Source: Eisenbergiella porci | GTDB taxonomy: Bacteria; Bacillota; Clostridia; Lachnospirales; Lachnospiraceae | Assembly: GCF_009696275.1 (NCBI RefSeq) | Contig: NZ_VUMI01000009.1 | Span: 62,001-126,000, forward strand | Reading direction: 5' to 3' | DNA length: 64,000 nt | In this document: in pieces, positions 24,772 to 41,078 of the stretch | Numbering within the stretch: position 1 is the first letter of the stretch | How the letters are laid out: each line of letters opens with the position of its first letter | Made by a program: the position numbers and the translations under genes | Notes under the pieces: model-generated | Told to the model about the DNA's origin: nothing | The model's database searches: none | Seen by the model: the letters and a program-made list of their open reading frames with translations, nothing else

Positions 24772-26112
24772 TTATAAATTCCTGCGGAACTTAATGACAG
24801 CCATGCCGCCGGATTCGCAGTTTTTCAGTTCCAGCTGTCTACTGTGCGTTGTAACCACCTGCGCTGCGAACCAAAGTCCGAGTCCATTGTGTCCGTCAGA
24901 ACTCCGCGCCGTATCATCACGCCACAGGCGTTCTGTCGCATGGTGCAGCGCGGCCCTGCTGAAGCCGGGACCTTCGTCACGCACGGTAATTTGCCAGCCG
25001 TTTGCCAGTATGCATCCTTCCAGATATACGCTGCCGCCTTCCGGCGTATGCTCAATGGCATTCTGCACCACATTGCCGAGAGCGCGAAGCAAATGGTCTT
25101 TTTGTATTCGGGCGGAACCCTCCAGGCTGTTTTGGCTGTGCAGAAAAATCCCGTTGGCTTGTGCAAGGGCGTTTGCGCTCAGGCAAAGCTCGTCAAACAT
25201 GGCGGGCAGAGCGGTATTTTCAAACGTTTCGTCCGCATCGGATGAGGTTTCCAGAAGGCTGGCAACATAATGTTTTGCACGGTCGCTGTTTGATATGATG
25301 GTTTTTACCATTCTCTGGCAGTTCTCAGGCAAATTTTCATCCAGCAGAAGCTCCGCGTTTCCCCCTATCAGTGTGAGCGGAGTTTTCAGATCGTGGGCGA
25401 GTGCGGCTATTTCCGCCTCACGTTCCTGTTGGGCCGCCCATTGGGAGGACAGGGAGCTGTATAATGCTTCCCGCATATGTTCCATGGCGTCCAGCGCCTG
25501 ATCATATTCCCGTATGCCCGCATGAGGGACTGTAAAATCCAGCTCCTGTGCGCCTACCCTATCACTCACTTCACCGAACAGCCTGAGCCTGGCGGCAAGG
25601 CGCCGGCGGAGCCGCAGGGTATTAAAAATCAGGCAGAACACCCACCCCGCGCCAAGCACGGCCAGCCACAGGTATTCAAAAGGAGGAAGCAGATTGCGCA
25701 GGATTGGATTTACAAATTCCGACCTGAAATACCATTGAATAATAACGGTACTCCCGTCCGCGTAGGTGCGACGCGAAACATGGACGTCATCAGGAGCCTG
25801 CAGAAAAAATTCTCTCAGAGTCTCCAGTTTCTTTCCTTCCACATTGCTTTCCAACACGTTACCGTCCGGTGCAAACAAAGCATATTCGGGCAGAAAATCC
25901 GCACCCGGGGAAATAAAGTTTTTTGTGTCTTCGGCCAGAATCCGCTCCGTCTGTTGATTGGAGACGTAGCCCTGGTAAATAATACCGGCGTTTCGAAGCT
26001 GCGTAAAGCAAAGCATCCATACCAGGCCGCACAGCAGCATGCAGCCGAGCATAACGACGGCAAAGCGCAGAAGAACGAAGGTAAGACTTACAGAACGCTG
26101 TTTTTTTGCCAT
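24772..26112 (-). CDS. Sensor histidine kinase of peptide-immunity operon
   Basis: A 446-residue membrane kinase. Helix 1 is about 10-32, then an extracytoplasmic loop of about 110 residues, helix 2 about 150-170, and a HAMP linker. HisKA is IAALAHDLKTPLTLIGG with the phospho-accepting His. HATPase motifs are NVVQNAIEHTPEG, DEGPGF and GHNGLGLW. It overlaps the response regulator frame by 25 bases. It is the last gene of a five-gene minus-strand operon and probably senses a cationic or lantibiotic peptide. Confidence 0.92.
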   Translation of the reverse strand: MAKKQRSVSLTFVLLRFAVVMLGCMLLCGLVWMLCFTQLRNAGIIYQGYVSNQQTERILAEDTKNFISPGADFLPEYALFAPDGNVLESNVEGKKLETLREFFLQAPDDVHVSRRTYADGSTVIIQWYFRSEFVNPILRNLLPPFEYLWLAVLGAGWVFCLIFNTLRLRRRLAARLRLFGEVSDRVGAQELDFTVPHAGIREYDQALDAMEHMREALYSSLSSQWAAQQEREAEIAALAHDLKTPLTLIGGNAELLLDENLPENCQRMVKTIISNSDRAKHYVASLLETSSDADETFENTALPAMFDELCLSANALAQANGIFLHSQNSLEGSARIQKDHLLRALGNVVQNAIEHTPEGGSVYLEGCILANGWQITVRDEGPGFSRAALHHATERLWRDDTARSSDGHNGLGLWFAAQVVTTHSRQLELKNCESGGMAVIKFRRNL

Positions 26113-26762
26113 TTATACCCCACCCCCCAGACTGTCTCAACAGGGCTTAATCCTTCGGCCTTCAGTTTGGCGCGGATATTTTTGACATGTTCCGCAATAG
26201 CCGACGGATCGCCCCCGGCGTCAAAGCCGAAAACTGCATCATATAATTGTTCTTTGGTAAAAACCTGTCCCGCGTGCAGGGCAAGGTGTTCACAGAACGC
26301 ATATTCGCCCCTGGTAAGGGGCAGTGTGCGTTCTCCGGCAAAAGCCTCTTTTGCCTGCATGTCAAAACGTACGCCGCCCCGGTTCATGGTACGGACCGGA
26401 CTGCGCGCCTCGCGCCGCAGATGGGCGTTTACCCGCGCGCGCAGTTCCGCGATACTGAAGGGCTTCTTAATATAATCATCGGCGCCCAGGCCAAAGCCCT
26501 GCACAAGGGCAGCATCTTCCGCCCTGGCTGTTAAGAACAGGATGGGGCAATCCACCTCATCACGGATACGGCCGCAAAGGGAAAAGCCATCCTCGCCGGG
26601 CATCATCACATCAAGCAGCAGCAAATCATACGCCTGACACCGCTCGGCCTGTACCGCCGCCGCATCCGGCTCAATATCCACCCGATGCCCGTCCTTCTCC
26701 AGGGCAGCGCGCACCAGAGCCAGCATTTCAAGATCATCATCAACAACCAACACCCTAAACAT
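26088..26762 (-). CDS. OmpR-family response regulator of peptide-immunity operon
   Basis: A 224-residue regulator. The receiver domain shows VLVVDDDLEM, LLLLDVMMPGEDGF with phospho-Asp, and IKKPFS. The winged-helix DNA-binding domain ends VETVWGVGYKWQK. ATG 26762 has AAGGAGGATTT just before it; an upstream open frame to 26879 lacks signals. It lies between the LanG-like permease and the kinase, and the 89-base gap before it holds a copy of an RNA-like repeat with a hidden ribosome site. It probably activates the transporter operon. Confidence 0.93.
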   Translation of the reverse strand: MFRVLVVDDDLEMLALVRAALEKDGHRVDIEPDAAAVQAERCQAYDLLLLDVMMPGEDGFSLCGRIRDEVDCPILFLTARAEDAALVQGFGLGADDYIKKPFSIAELRARVNAHLRREARSPVRTMNRGGVRFDMQAKEAFAGERTLPLTRGEYAFCEHLALHAGQVFTKEQLYDAVFGFDAGGDPSAIAEHVKNIRAKLKAEGLSPVETVWGVGYKWQKNSVL

Positions 26763-26835
26763 CAAATCCTCCTTATAATCCTCCTTGTTTTGCGGAGCAA
26801 AATGCGAGCCCAGGGCGAGCAGAGGATTTACCTCC
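26763..26835 (-). promoter_or_regulatory. Structured repeat that can mask a ribosome site (copy C)
   Basis: Read on the minus strand, AATCCTC (26822-26828) is followed by the hairpin TTTTGCTCCGCAAAA and then AAGGAGGATT. AATCCTC can pair with GAGGATT and so hide the Shine-Dalgarno sequence. A second AAGGAGGATT directly precedes the regulator's ATG. About 50 bases match the element before the GH gene at 39540 almost exactly. Confidence 0.6.
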
Positions 26836-26851
26836 TTGTTTTCCTCTATGT

Positions 26852-27583
26852 TTACTCCTGCACAATGTTGCCTTCCCATCTGTCAAACCACAGTACCGAC
26901 AAAATAAGAACAGCCAAAGTAATAATTATCAAAGAAATTATCCCGGAAAAAACAGGAATATTCGAAAAGCCAAAGAGTTTTTTCAAAAACCTGACGCCCC
27001 ATTCCCAGGGAATGAACGGCCAAATCTGATCGCCAATCGCGTTTTCAAAATAACCTGCTGATATTGTGCCTGCAATTCCTGTGAATGCCGAAATACCCGC
27101 CCCCAACCTGAAAGCAATGAATATGTGTAATAAATACAAAAATATATTGCCAAATAAAAAAATTATAAATATCAAAAGGTTAGAAGTATAATCCATTATA
27201 CTGATGCCCAGAAAAAACCTGACTCCCACATAGAAGCACAGCTCATATAGTATCATACTTAAAGCAGACAAGAACATAAGAAAGAACAATTTCCCTAAAT
27301 ATACACCTTTTCGTGTTTCCGTTAAGCCAAGGGAATTTTGAATATTGCTTATATTTCTGTCCAGGTTAATCAAAACCGGCACCGCAATACCTGCAAAAAC
27401 AGGGAAACATATCTGCAGTATAATAAAAAACAGCCTCACATCAGGAATAATATGATATCCCGCATACTTATAATAAACTAAAAATACCGCGGTAATCACG
27501 ACCGGCAGTACCAAATGCAGTAAAATAACCGGTGTCCGTCTGATTTTGGTAAAATCGGAAATAAACTCCCTTATAACAGTCAT
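26852..27583 (-). CDS. ABC permease, LanG/MutG type
   Basis: A 243-residue membrane protein with six hydrophobic segments. The N-terminus (SDFTKIRRTPVILLHLVLPV) matches the short cytoplasmic lead of MutG/LanG permeases, which pair with LanE and the LanF ATPase to expel lantibiotics or related peptides from the membrane. It overlaps the preceding permease by four bases (ATGA-type). No lantibiotic precursor gene is nearby, so the role is most likely immunity or resistance without production. Confidence 0.85.
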   Translation of the reverse strand: MTVIREFISDFTKIRRTPVILLHLVLPVVITAVFLVYYKYAGYHIIPDVRLFFIILQICFPVFAGIAVPVLINLDRNISNIQNSLGLTETRKGVYLGKLFFLMFLSALSMILYELCFYVGVRFFLGISIMDYTSNLLIFIIFLFGNIFLYLLHIFIAFRLGAGISAFTGIAGTISAGYFENAIGDQIWPFIPWEWGVRFLKKLFGFSNIPVFSGIISLIIITLAVLILSVLWFDRWEGNIVQE

Positions 27584-30200: not shown

Positions 30201-30500
30201 ACGCAGGAGCCTGGTTCTGCCGTCTGCGGCTGGCTGGTTAAATTAAAAAAGCTGTGGAGGCATAAAGCTGTAAAAGGACAAAGCTATAAAAGAATAAAGC
30301 TGTAAAAGCCCAAAGTCTATAAAAGTCCAAAATCTATAAAAGTCTTAAGTCTATAAAAGTTGTAAAATGTCAAAACCAAAATGCTTGACACATGGATAGA
30401 AGAATGTCAGAATAGAGTTACTTTCAGGAAGCGATCGCTTCTGTAATTTCTTCTACATAACATTTCTGATTTCATCTTCTGTGGATTTATTTACTTTATC
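30201..30500. repeat. Tandem 16-17 bp repeats and weak promoter
   Basis: Bases 30262-30370 hold six degenerate copies of a unit like AAAGTCTATAAAAGTCC, each with the core TATAAAAG or TGTAAAAG. A TTGACA at 30385-30390 with CAGAAT 17 bases on may be a weak promoter. No gene is seen. Confidence 0.65.
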
Positions 30501-30624: not shown

Positions 30625-31578
30625 ATGCACACAAATGAAGCAGTACTGGCCCGCAAGCCCCAGAAGGCGTATAAGGACCGCATGTTCCGGATGTTATTTT
30701 CGGAACGGAAAGATTTACTGGAGCTGTATAACGCATTGTGTCAGAAGGATTATACGGATCCGGACGCATTGGAAATCACCACACTGGATGATGTAATCTA
30801 TATGGGGATGAAGAATGATGTTTCCTTTCTTCTGGATGGAAGAATGGGTTTATTTGAACATCAGAGCACCTTTAATCCCAATATGCCGCTGCGGGGATTA
30901 TTTTATTTTTCAGACCTGTATAAACGCTTCTTCCATGATCGTTTAATTTATTCCACCAGGCTTTTGAAGATTCCTACGCCGGTATATGTTGTCTTTTACA
31001 ATGGGGAACAGCAGCTGCCGGACGTTTCGGTTTTAAAGCTGTCGGATGCGTTTATGCAGGGAGCGGATATGGCCTGTCTGGAGGTACGTGTCCGTATACT
31101 GAATATTAATGAGGGGCATAATGCGGAATTAATGGGACGGTGCCGGAAGCTAGAGGAATATGCCATATTTATAGGATGCGTGAGAGAGTTCCTGAAGTCT
31201 ACGGAACCGGCGGAAGCAATCCGGAAGGCAATGGAACTGTGTATTGAGAAGGGGATATTGGCCGTTTTTTTGAGTCAGAGGAGGGCAGAGGTAATGAATG
31301 CGCTTTTAACGGAATATGACGAAGAAAAGGTGATGAAGAGCCTGAGTAAGGAATTTTATGAGGATGGCTACGAAGATGGACGGGAAGCTGGGCTGGCGGA
31401 AGGGTTAGCAGAAGGACTAGCGGAGGGGTTAGCAGAAGGAATACACGCTTTTGTAAGCTATAACCTGGAAGTTGGTAAGCCTGGGGAACAGATAGTCAGT
31501 GAAATGATAAAGATTTTTTCTCTGTCAAAGGCACAGGCGGAAAAAAATTTTGCGGAGTTCACGGAAAGTTTCTGTTGA
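30625..31578 (+). CDS. Rpn-family PD-(D/E)XK nuclease with internal start
   Basis: A 317-residue Rpn/PDDEXK transposase-like nuclease. The family start KAYKDRMFRMLF, KNDVSFLLDGRMGLFEHQST with the catalytic Asp, Glu and Gln, and YFSDLYKRF are plain. Rpn proteins cut DNA, promote recombination and act in phage defence. Residues 235-263 contain Leu-Ala-Glu-Gly repeats. Inside the gene, AGGAGG (31279-31284) stands nine bases before an in-frame ATG at 31294, so a separate C-terminal product may be made, as in described Rpn genes whose short product blocks the full one. The C-terminus ends NFAEFTESFC where its duplicate ends KYIQQ. Confidence 0.88.
   Translation: MHTNEAVLARKPQKAYKDRMFRMLFSERKDLLELYNALCQKDYTDPDALEITTLDDVIYMGMKNDVSFLLDGRMGLFEHQSTFNPNMPLRGLFYFSDLYKRFFHDRLIYSTRLLKIPTPVYVVFYNGEQQLPDVSVLKLSDAFMQGADMACLEVRVRILNINEGHNAELMGRCRKLEEYAIFIGCVREFLKSTEPAEAIRKAMELCIEKGILAVFLSQRRAEVMNALLTEYDEEKVMKSLSKEFYEDGYEDGREAGLAEGLAEGLAEGLAEGIHAFVSYNLEVGKPGEQIVSEMIKIFSLSKAQAEKNFAEFTESFC
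31294..31578 (+). CDS. Possible internally started C-terminal Rpn product
   Basis: In frame with the Rpn gene; starts MNALLTEYDEEK behind AGGAGG at nine bases. It would be a 94-residue protein with the Leu-Ala-Glu-Gly repeat and the C-terminal helical part but no nuclease domain. Known Rpn loci make such short inhibitors from internal starts. Expression here is inference. Confidence 0.4.
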   Translation: MNALLTEYDEEKVMKSLSKEFYEDGYEDGREAGLAEGLAEGLAEGLAEGIHAFVSYNLEVGKPGEQIVSEMIKIFSLSKAQAEKNFAEFTESFC

Positions 31579-31612
31579 AAAGTATGTGAGAAGTATATTG
31601 AGGAATATGCCA

Positions 31613-31880
31613 TTTTTTGAGTCAGAGGAGGGCAGAGGTAATGAATGCGCTTTTAACGGAATATGACGAAGAAAAGGTGATGAAGAGCCTGAGTAAGGAA
31701 TTTTATGAGGATGGCTACGAAGATGGACGGGAAGCTGGGCTGGCAGAAGGGCTGGCAGAAGGACTAGCAGAAGGAATACACGCTTTTGTAAGCTATAACC
31801 TGGAAGTTGGCAAGTCTGGGGAACAGATAGTCAGCGAAATGATAAAGATTTTTTCTCTGTCAAAGGCACAGGCGGAAAAA
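31613..31880 (+). repeat. Direct duplication of the Rpn 3' region
   Basis: Bases 31266-31545 are repeated at 31613-31880, with near-identity including the internal ribosome site. The copy lacks one 12-bp unit of the Leu-Ala-Glu-Gly repeat and one T of a T7 tract, which takes it out of frame with what lies before it. Confidence 0.95.
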
Positions 31881-31895
31881 TATATACAGCAATGA
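31641..31895 (+). CDS. Stand-alone Rpn C-terminal domain protein
   Basis: An 84-residue ORF beginning MNALLTEYDEEKVMK, almost identical to the C-terminal part of the upstream Rpn nuclease but without its catalytic domain. The same AGGAGG ribosome site lies nine bases before the ATG. It ends SKAQAEKYIQQ, which looks like the ancestral tail. Product of a tandem duplication; it could act as a free inhibitor of the nuclease, or be a harmless relic. The Leu-Ala-Glu-Gly repeat has three units plus a remnant, one fewer than upstream. Confidence 0.6.
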   Translation: MNALLTEYDEEKVMKSLSKEFYEDGYEDGREAGLAEGLAEGLAEGIHAFVSYNLEVGKSGEQIVSEMIKIFSLSKAQAEKYIQQ

Positions 31896-39397: not shown

Positions 39398-39416
39398 AAA
39401 GCAGAAAGAGGAGCAG

Positions 39417-39539
39417 AATTCCTCTGCTCGTCAGAGGATAAATTTCTAAAGAAATTGCATTTTGTTCCGCAAAACCAGGAGGAAAATCCTCTGCTCGCGC
39501 AGGGCTCGCATTTTGCTCCGCAAAACAAGGAGGATTAAA
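39417..39539 (+). promoter_or_regulatory. Two tandem copies (A, B) of SD-masking repeat
   Basis: Copy A: TTCCTC (39419-39424), hairpin TTTTGTTCCGCAAAA (39460-39474), AGGAGGAA. Copy B: AATCCTC (39485-39491), hairpin TTTTGCTCCGCAAAA (39510-39524), AAGGAGGATT (39527-39536). In each copy the first box can pair with the ribosome site of the same copy, and the two differ in a compensatory way. Copy B lies six bases before ATG 39540, so it would control the GH gene. Confidence 0.6.
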
Positions 39540-41078
39540 ATGAGTAAGTTGTTATTTCAGGAACAGGTAGAAAGATGGGGGATGCTGGAGGTAAGCTGCC
39601 AGGGGCCTGCGGAGGGAAATCCTTTTGTCGATCACCATATTCAGGGCGTCTTTACCGGAGAAAAGGAAACGGTAAAGACGGACGGTTTTTATGATGGGGA
39701 CGGTGTTTATAAGGTACGCTTTATGCCCTCCTTTGAGGGGAGCTACTGCTTTGCCATAAGCGCGGATTTCCTGGAAAAAGAGGAGACAGGAAGCTTTGTG
39801 AGCCTTCCTGCGGGGGAAGGAAACCATGGCCCGGTGCGTGTGGCTGATACCTACCATTTTGCATATGAGGACGGAACAAGGTACTATTCCATCGGAACCA
39901 CCTGTTATGTATGGGATCTGCAGTCAGATGAAAGAATTGCACAGACGCTGGAAACACTAAAGGCAAGTGCATTCAACAAAATCCGCTTCTGTATTTTTCC
40001 CAAGCATTATGACTATAACCTGGGAGAGCCGAGATCTTATCCCTATGAGGGGACGCCCATGGATTCCAGCGTGCTGACCAAGGAGAATTTCTGGGGCTAT
40101 ACAGGAAAAACGGAAGGAAATGACTGGGATTTCTACCGGTTTAACCCGGTTCATTTCAAGCATATCGAAAAATGCATCCTTGCCCTGCAGGAGTTGGGGA
40201 TAGAGGCGGATTTGATCGTGATGCATCCTTATGATCGCTGGGGCTTTTCCCAGATGACGAAGGAACAGGATGATTTTTACTGGAATTATGTGATTGCCAG
40301 ATTTTCCGCATACCGCAATGTATGGTGGTCGTTGGCAAATGAATATGATTTAATGAAAAATAAGACCACGGAGGACTGGGAGCGTTACGGCGCGATTCTG
40401 TGTGAAAAGGATGCGTACCGCCATCTGCGTTCCATCCATAACTGCATGGGGGTGTATGATCACAGCAGGCCCTGGATCACTCATTGCAGCATTCAGAGGC
40501 AGGATATTTACAAAACCTCTGAGCTGGTGGATGAGTGGCGTGAAAAATACCGTAAGCCTATCGTTATGGATGAAATCGCCTATGAAGGCAATATCCAGCA
40601 CGGCTGGGGCAATATCAGCGGCGAGGAAATGCTGCGCCGTTTCTGGGAAGCGGCCTGCAGGGGCGGGTATCCCGGCCATGGGGAAACCTATATGAACCCG
40701 GATGATATTCTCTGGTGGTCCCATGGCGGAACACTGCATGGGGAGAGCTGGAAGCGTTTTGAACTGCTTCATGATATTATGTGCGAAACGCCCGGAAACG
40801 GCCTGATGCCGCTTACCAGAGGTTTTGATGAAATCTGTGCCGTACCGCAGGAGGCAGAGGGGGAAGAGAAACCGGTGAAAGACTATTATCTGATGTATTA
40901 CAGCTTCATGCGTCCCTCCTTCCGGGATTATTATTTTGATGATGAGACGAAGTTCCGGGTGAAGGTGATTGATACCTGGGAAATGACGGTTGAAGACAGA
41001 GGGGTATTTAGCGGAAAATTCCGGGTGGAGCTGCCGGGGGAGGCTTATATGGCGGTTCAGATTAAGAAAGAAGCATAA
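39540..41078 (+). CDS. Cytosolic GH-A clan hydrolase (DUF5060/DUF4038-like)
   Basis: A 512-residue enzyme with no signal peptide. An N-terminal beta-sandwich (about 1-95) resembles DUF5060. The central barrel resembles DUF4038 and has the two carboxylates expected of a GH-A clan retaining glycosidase: Glu268 in SLANEYDLM and Glu345 in VMDEIAYEG. The C-terminus is a beta domain like DUF5605. Related DUF4038 enzymes include GH140 apiosidases, but substrate assignment from sequence alone is uncertain. ATG 39540 is six bases after AAGGAGG. It lies at the end of the isomerase/transketolase/kinase unit and probably frees the sugar they use. Confidence 0.78.
   Translation: MSKLLFQEQVERWGMLEVSCQGPAEGNPFVDHHIQGVFTGEKETVKTDGFYDGDGVYKVRFMPSFEGSYCFAISADFLEKEETGSFVSLPAGEGNHGPVRVADTYHFAYEDGTRYYSIGTTCYVWDLQSDERIAQTLETLKASAFNKIRFCIFPKHYDYNLGEPRSYPYEGTPMDSSVLTKENFWGYTGKTEGNDWDFYRFNPVHFKHIEKCILALQELGIEADLIVMHPYDRWGFSQMTKEQDDFYWNYVIARFSAYRNVWWSLANEYDLMKNKTTEDWERYGAILCEKDAYRHLRSIHNCMGVYDHSRPWITHCSIQRQDIYKTSELVDEWREKYRKPIVMDEIAYEGNIQHGWGNISGEEMLRRFWEAACRGGYPGHGETYMNPDDILWWSHGGTLHGESWKRFELLHDIMCETPGNGLMPLTRGFDEICAVPQEAEGEEKPVKDYYLMYYSFMRPSFRDYYFDDETKFRVKVIDTWEMTVEDRGVFSGKFRVELPGEAYMAVQIKKEA

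Follow-up and report, generated by a model that had tools for sequence, protein, structure and literature searches.

Small repeats are common in bacteria. REP elements and BIMEs, which occur together with RAYT (Y1) transposases, are palindromic, intergenic, tandem and strand-oriented, and the Rickettsia palindromic elements are small repeats that can lie in frame in coding sequences. In the ROSE and fourU RNA thermometers a helix closes over the Shine-Dalgarno (SD) sequence, and in the guides of IS200/IS605 elements and the EBS/IBS pairs of introns the target is recognized by base pairing. The BOX, RUP and SPRITE repeats of Streptococcus are short, dispersed and non-coding, with inverted ends and predicted RNA stem-loops, and BOX is modular, being built of repeated units (PMC3049150). 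MITEs such as Nezha are short and non-coding and have inverted ends (PMC3049150). The element described here, carried by Eisenbergiella porci, resembles both groups: it is short, non-coding and dispersed, it forms stem-loops, and its terminal inverted repeats are the two strands of a helix, P1, formed by a 5' box and the SD; a GGAGG that resembles a duplication, or may belong to the element, stands at both ends. It enters ribosome-binding sites and brings a replacement SD, neither of which is described for BOX, RUP and SPRITE in the excerpted text of the source, and the sites compared between species are unshared, whereas according to the same text approximately half of the repeat insertions in Streptococcus are common to all strains of a species (PMC3049150). 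Unlike a MITE, it had no parent transposon detectable with a left-half pattern in four genomes, and two of its end bases follow the target. Small interspersed hairpin repeats are thus a known broad kind, from which SD targeting, SD replacement and target-matched ends set this element apart; a search of the openly licensed literature found no description of a repeat that enters and restores a ribosome-binding site while fitting its own end to the target. On balance, we regard it as probable that this is a small, non-autonomous, SD-invading mobile DNA element of Lachnospiraceae, roughly 52 bases long, whose box is re-set to each target and whose predicted masking of the SD is a consequence of that fit.

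The stretch of DNA analysed, 64,000 nucleotides in length, is referred to as the window; G and L numbers denote genomes and loci. Three copies had been pointed out in a preliminary description, two in tandem before the gene beginning at 39540 and one before the gene beginning at 26762, and all three were found at these positions (Table 1). Copy A was a weaker, partial match to the covariance model (47.1 bits, model positions 10-58), and its AATTTC-TAAA-GAAATT hairpin module is also present in several other copies. The ortholog of the apiosidase-like gene in AP025576.1 (L004) is without the element and reads AAAAGGAGAGAATGGGTTATG. At 26088-27583 on the minus strand, copy C lies between a gene for a lantibiotic-immunity-type (MutG-like) ABC permease and the response regulator gene.

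Table 1. Positions in the window of element copies A, B and C, their parts and the adjoining genes
Feature	Position	Strand	Remarks
Presumed original SD of the apiosidase-like gene, GAGGAG	39408-39413	+	5' flank of copy A
Copy A, 5' box ATTCCTC	39418-39424	+	5' strand of P1
Copy A, P2 region (TGC...GCA) with extra AATTTC-TAAA-GAAATT hairpin module	39425-39459	+	
Copy A, P3 hairpin TTTTGTTCCGCAAAA	39460-39474	+	contains a U-G pair
Copy A, 3' GGAGG	39478-39482	+	copy B begins directly after
Copy B, element (AAAATCCTC...CAAGGAGG)	39483-39533	+	covariance model, 83.4 bits
Copy B, 5' box AATCCTC	39485-39491	+	5' strand of P1
Copy B, P2 (TGC...GCA)	39492-39510	+	
Copy B, P3 hairpin TTTTGCTCCGCAAAA	39511-39525	+	
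Copy B, SD GGAGG with flank ATT, GGAGGATT	39529-39536	+	3' strand of P1
Gene downstream of copies A and B	39540-41078	+	DUF5060 / Apiosidase-like / DUF5605 glycoside hydrolase; ATG at 39540
Copy C, element including its 5' GGAGG and 3' flank	26774-26835	-	covariance model, 78.7 bits
Copy C, 5' box AATCCTC	26828-26822	-	
Copy C, P3 hairpin	26802-26788	-	
Copy C, SD GGAGG with flank ATT, GGAGGATT	26784-26777	-	
Second SD GGAGGA	26772-26767	-	outside the copy C element, closer to the start codon (ATG 26762)
Gene downstream of copy C	26088-26762	-	OmpR/PhoB-type response regulator

A 23-nt core, with at most 3 mismatches, matched the 6.1-Mb genome 33 times and its reversed control 0 times; the matches are therefore not due to chance. 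A covariance model (R1) was built from 28 copies, and matches were counted at E <= 1e-3. This genome (G000) had 43, G001 had 17 and G012 had 19, counting array units and partial copies; the model found none in four further congeners, and the core pattern had no match in ten congeners. Matches were present in at least 22 of a sample of 397 Lachnospiraceae genomes, each from a different genus and this genome included, and in at least 3 of 391 genomes of a class-wide sample, namely this genome, another Lachnospiraceae and one of another family. Both figures are lower bounds, because the filters were stricter and 13 candidates were scored per genome. The copy in the other family is single and lies near a contig end, upstream of the same XRE regulator gene that has a copy before it in two Lachnospiraceae. 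As far as sampled, the element is patchy and mainly occurs in one family, the Lachnospiraceae.

In two genomes of different genera (L216 in G112 and L252 in G299), one copy belongs to a NikA-like mobilisation gene and a second, approximately 376 bp away, to the following gene. The mobilisation gene is a likely vehicle for spread between genera, and mobilisable elements may help the spread. Two exact patterns gave 0 matches in the viral_contigs set, searched for a phage vehicle; three unannotated faecal 'Bacteriophage sp.' scaffolds carry copies. The element is present on a megaplasmid of [Eubacterium] eligens ATCC 27750 (NC_012780.1), where at L350:3001-3065 it occupies an SD overlapping a patatin gene's end, and the last residues of the annotated protein are encoded by the element (EDKSSPRQRGSDFPAENKED). 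This was the sole case seen of the element in frame in a coding sequence; in this it resembles the Rickettsia palindromic elements, from which it differs in having the SD as its target.

GGAGG forms the 3' end of nearly all copies examined. Core-pattern matches gave 51 loci in the own genus, of which 18 internal array units were set aside. A start codon and an open frame followed soon after the 3' SD in 31 of the remaining 33, at 2-14 nt as called; the extremes of this range are TTG calls, and the ATG of copy C lies farther off, beyond its second SD. For copies from other genera (89 model matches minus duplicates and internal units), a start codon was found at 4-11 nt in 61 of 62. The criteria for a start codon and open frame after the element were permissive. 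All copies read have a single orientation relative to the SD. The downstream genes include purA, tig, serC, ilvD, infA and gyrA, identified by family matches mostly to N-terminal pieces, and also genes for a FlxA-like protein, a NUDIX protein and the NikA-like mobilisation protein; transporters, glycosidases and others, as well as yqfD, trk, nagA, mtnA and spoVAE, were named by eye. No common function, and hence no regulon, was seen among the downstream genes of the examined copies. In the window, a crude ORF call divided 267 GGAGG sequences, those of the elements included, into 13 SDs, 231 in predicted coding sequence and 23 elsewhere, so that SDs make up 13 of the 36 outside predicted coding sequence. 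That GGAGG in coding sequence is unused would be expected from selection, whereas that other non-coding GGAGG is unused would not. The preference of the element for SDs therefore looks real, although the count is crude.

Nine genes were read in sister species to compare filled with empty orthologous sites. The purA gene is filled in G012 and empty in G001 and 11 other congeners (filled in 1 of 13). The filled site runs from TTAGGAGG through the element (AAAATTCC...CAAGGAGG) into AATCAG, and the empty site of G001 reads TTAGGAGGAATAAAG. The left flank in G012 (GGAATAGTTAGGAGG) is the one present at the empty G001 site, and the right one (AATCAGAAATG) closely resembles its G001 counterpart (AATAAAGAAATG); between them lies an insert of 53 bp that ends in a second GGAGG. 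The tig gene is filled by a 53-bp unit in G001 and empty in G012, G000 and G010, and the empty sites in G012 and G000 both read ATACAAGGAGGAAGCAG (ATACAAGGAGGAAGCAGTAAAATG). The yqfD, serC, ilvD, trk and nagA genes were each filled in only one of the three or four species read, the serC copy consisting of five tandem units with a period of 53. For mtnA and spoVAE the element is absent in the relatives read, the flanks being too diverged to align or to define an insertion; the spoVAE copy is itself degenerate. The insertion point is directly 3' of GGAGG and inside the stretch paired in P1, and the element brings the next GGAGG; the junction inside arrays is identical. The GGAGG at both ends of the insert may be a duplication or part of the element. 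These empty sites indicate that the element inserts directly 3' of the GGAGG of SD sites. The replacement GGAGG at its 3' end would let usually essential genes tolerate the insertion, and re-insertion or duplication after its own GGAGG would generate the head-to-tail arrays, whose junctions recur with periods of 52-55 bp. In proposing a mobile control cassette from the unrelated downstream genes, the preliminary description is borne out as regards mobility and the absence of a common function.

The element was predicted to fold into a three-way junction consisting of P1 (the box with the SD and its flank), P2 (TGC...GCA) and P3 (TTTTGC...GCAAAA). In the consensus the three helices abut, and the only unpaired bases are CAA before the SD strand of P1. 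The fold proposed earlier comprised a box paired with the SD and a hairpin. These parts stand as P1 and P3, respectively; P2 had been overlooked, and the fold has three helices. The P3 palindrome occurs as TTTTGC/GCAAAA, TTTTCC/GGAAAA, TTTTTC/GAAAAA and CTTTGC/GCAAAG. A local hairpin CCTCTG/CAGAGG was considered as the second stem and set aside in favour of TGC...GCA; 84.9% of the cells of CCTCTG/CAGAGG are paired but they show no covariation.

In 28 aligned copies, P1 has 16 cells in which both sides differ. P1 and P3 combined gave 17 such cells, a value reached by 0 of 500 shuffles and compared with at most 5 in slid controls; a weaker measure, the number of pairs with a change on both sides, was 3 and was reached by 31 of 500 shuffles. 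A larger set of 94 copies from 22 genera was parsed from sequence alone, and in both sets the shuffles take no account of relatedness. Of the 94 copies, 88 have the first base following GAGG paired with the box (shuffle mean 74.6) and 85 the second (shuffle mean 53.6); the middle pair of P2 is formed in 93 (shuffle mean 64.3). None of 5000 shuffles was as high in any of these three cases. Between the P2 variants TGC...GCA and TCC...GGA, the middle pair swaps G-C and C-G in concert. No clear covariation was found for the third flank base (71 of 94 paired against 68.5, reached by 20% of shuffles) or the fourth (27 of 94 against 23.6, reached by 5%). The 94-copy count omits four unparsable copies (L102, L108, L110 and L270), internal array units, copies that are degenerate or consist of the right half only (L087, L095, L104, L105, L111 and L276) and 25 weaker or extra copies, and its table holds eight parsed in the wrong register (L106, L179, L218, L229, L245, L272, L274 and L275). 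The compensatory base changes originally noticed between box and SD thus recur over both sets, and P2 covaries as well. The transcribed or single strand would accordingly be expected to fold into the three-helix junction, in which P1 pairs the 5' box with the SD and with at least two bases beyond it, for which covariation was seen.

The two variable box bases were compared with the flank of each target. In 17 pairs of copies with at most one substitution in the body and different box bases, the own flank was complementary in 33 of 34 cases and the swapped flank in 3 of 34; the pairs share members, so that these counts are descriptive and carry no probability. One unchanged 43-nt body occurs in three genomes with box and flank AT and AT (L089), TC and GA (L118), and TT and AA (L121 and L182), and L124 and L133, from one genome, have a common body with AT/AT and TT/AA, respectively. 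In the two cleanest cases, purA and tig, the empty orthologs have the same flank bases; the flank is therefore native, and the box fits it rather than the other way round. At nagA the flank of the filled site is AA compared with AT in G001, G012 and one of two G010 loci, and the flank is thus not always demonstrably native. Near-identical bodies with boxes that each match their own flank suggest that re-setting of the box takes place on insertion or shortly afterwards, since slow compensatory drift would have to alter the box, partly by a one-base insertion, while sparing 43 bases. We infer from these comparisons that the two bases are re-set to the complement of the target flank, most simply by templated gap-filling or repair across the folded P1. 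The nagA flank and the copies before the XRE regulator gene, described below, weigh against this.

Alternatively, the box might act as a guide that pairs with the target GGAGGnn before insertion, box mutants being re-targeted, by analogy with the IS200/IS605 and intron systems. In 28 of 31 own-genus copies both box bases could pair with the flank of the target, the insertion point lies within the paired stretch, and the copies read share one orientation to the SD, all of which such a guide would give. However, identical bodies carry different boxes in one genome (L121 and L118; L124 and L133), which would require repeated mutation of the box alone, and no link to a Y1 enzyme was found. A guide role is accordingly rather unlikely, and re-setting of the box on insertion is preferred.

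A mover was sought among three enzyme families. An IS200/IS605-type Y1 transposase was an attractive candidate, because insertion occurs 3' of a fixed pentamer and needs no duplication. Nevertheless, Y1_Tnp was present in 11 of 24 carriers and in 11 of 20 presumed non-carriers, showing no association, and was absent from the heavy carriers G323, G073 and G336; this candidate was rejected. The presumed non-carriers are genomes with no pattern or model match, G008 and G036 by the core pattern alone, which missed the true carrier G018. RVT_1 (reverse transcriptase) was absent in 6 of 14 carriers and 2 of 9 non-carriers, and Transposase_20, which we take to be an IS110-type domain, in 6 of 14 and 5 of 9. 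All three are lacking in G426, a carrier genome in a single contig; most of the others are drafts, where insertion elements can be missing. A longer autonomous copy with the same ends was also rejected, since the right half lies close to 35 of the 37 matches for the left half; of the remaining two, L178 is a deletion copy and L207 resembles a chance match. This search used one pattern with at most 2 mismatches in G000, G001, G012 and G020, the last of which gave no match because its P2 differs. The negative results for a mobilising enzyme among these families and for a longer form tell against the preferred reading as a mobile element.

These results also bear on whether the element is an ordinary palindromic repeat of the REP or MITE type, moved by a resident transposase, purged wherever else it inserted, and with P1 matched by quasi-palindrome correction in replication. 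Its multi-copy, hairpin-rich and modular nature, its tandem arrays, its patchy occurrence across genera and the decay of some copies are in keeping with such a repeat, and it shares its main traits with REP and BIME. It differs from the latter in ending in an SD and in the lack of Y1 in the heavy carriers; moreover, none of the three enzyme families is common to all carriers, and non-SD non-coding GGAGG is available yet hardly used by the crude count. We consider an ordinary repeat of this type very improbable. Within the preferred account of an SD-invading element, we put forward only tentatively the stronger proposition that the element homes to SDs and rewrites its own 5' bases according to the target during the insertion reaction, giving a tailor-made SD-masking helix without a Y1, IS110-type or reverse transcriptase mover, possibly through host replication or repair working on single strands that have folded.

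Masking of the SD, as envisaged in the preliminary description, was predicted by folding. For 79 copies, the predicted cost of freeing the SD averaged 5.7 kcal/mol. With P1 and P2 enforced, the fold was lower than the SD-open form in 72 of the 79 and within 1 kcal/mol of the minimum in 35, so that other SD-masking folds compete. Predicted SD accessibility averaged 0.27 at 7 filled and 0.48 at 18 empty sites; the values overlap and are indicative only, the SD and start having been chosen automatically, wrongly in the case of purA in G001. In copy C the second SD lies outside the element, and masking of the element's own SD need therefore not hide the one nearer the start.

It had further been proposed that the element is a translational switch, and a portable cis-regulatory RNA responding to temperature, a ligand, a protein or ribosome availability, with P1 hiding the SD, the fold under selection and the cassette kept where useful, would account for the covariation of P1 and P2, the predicted cost of opening the SD and the excess of copies at SDs over other non-coding GGAGG in the crude count. 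As in riboswitches and thermometers, a covarying helix, P1, is predicted to hide the SD. The XRE regulator gene offers a further point in its favour: its copies (L220, L221 and L354 in G166, G185 and G623, from two families) have TT/AA in G166 and TG/CA in G185 and G623, which can be read as compensatory change after insertion, if there was one old insertion. However, the downstream genes form no regulon, the loops vary and none resembling a conserved ligand core was seen by eye among the copies, in some diverged copies the SD or the pairing is gone (L341, L342 and L346, by eye), copy C has its second SD outside the mask, and boxes specific to the target change while the body does not. Accessibility is moreover only moderately lower at filled sites. 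The helix that in ROSE and fourU likewise closes over the SD differs here from target to target. No Rfam 15 family was found over the element, either in the window at the gathering score or at eight loci at E <= 1. For these reasons the switch found no support, and a regulatory RNA of this kind appears unlikely. The compensatory changes among dispersed copies point to coupling with insertion rather than to slow selection for a regulatory fold. The predicted masking would most likely affect translation modestly and constitutively, or couple it to translation upstream where the element lies inside an operon; masking would then be a consequence of insertion, with translation of the host gene probably lowered or coupled, and not the work of a dedicated sensor.

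If the reading as an SD-invading element is right, the element alters the leaders of housekeeping genes in gut Lachnospiraceae, and filled and empty orthologs constitute a natural experiment on SD masking. Covariation among dispersed copies could then stem from the mode of insertion, which calls for caution where regulatory RNAs are called from covariation only.

Several further repeats and RNAs were observed. At L264:255-681 (G073:C158) a longer array contains 37-base partial units (model positions 17-53) beside full ones, and at L214:2801-2968 a TwoAYGGAY RNA (RF01731, 112 bits) lies near one copy. Two families of direct repeats are present at 31266-31883 of the window, one of 162 bp with a spacing of 347 bp and 97% identity, the other of 180 bp with a spacing of 335 bp and 86% identity, and A+T-rich short tandem repeats of the AAGTCTATAAAAG type, with a spacing of 17, at 30239-30360.
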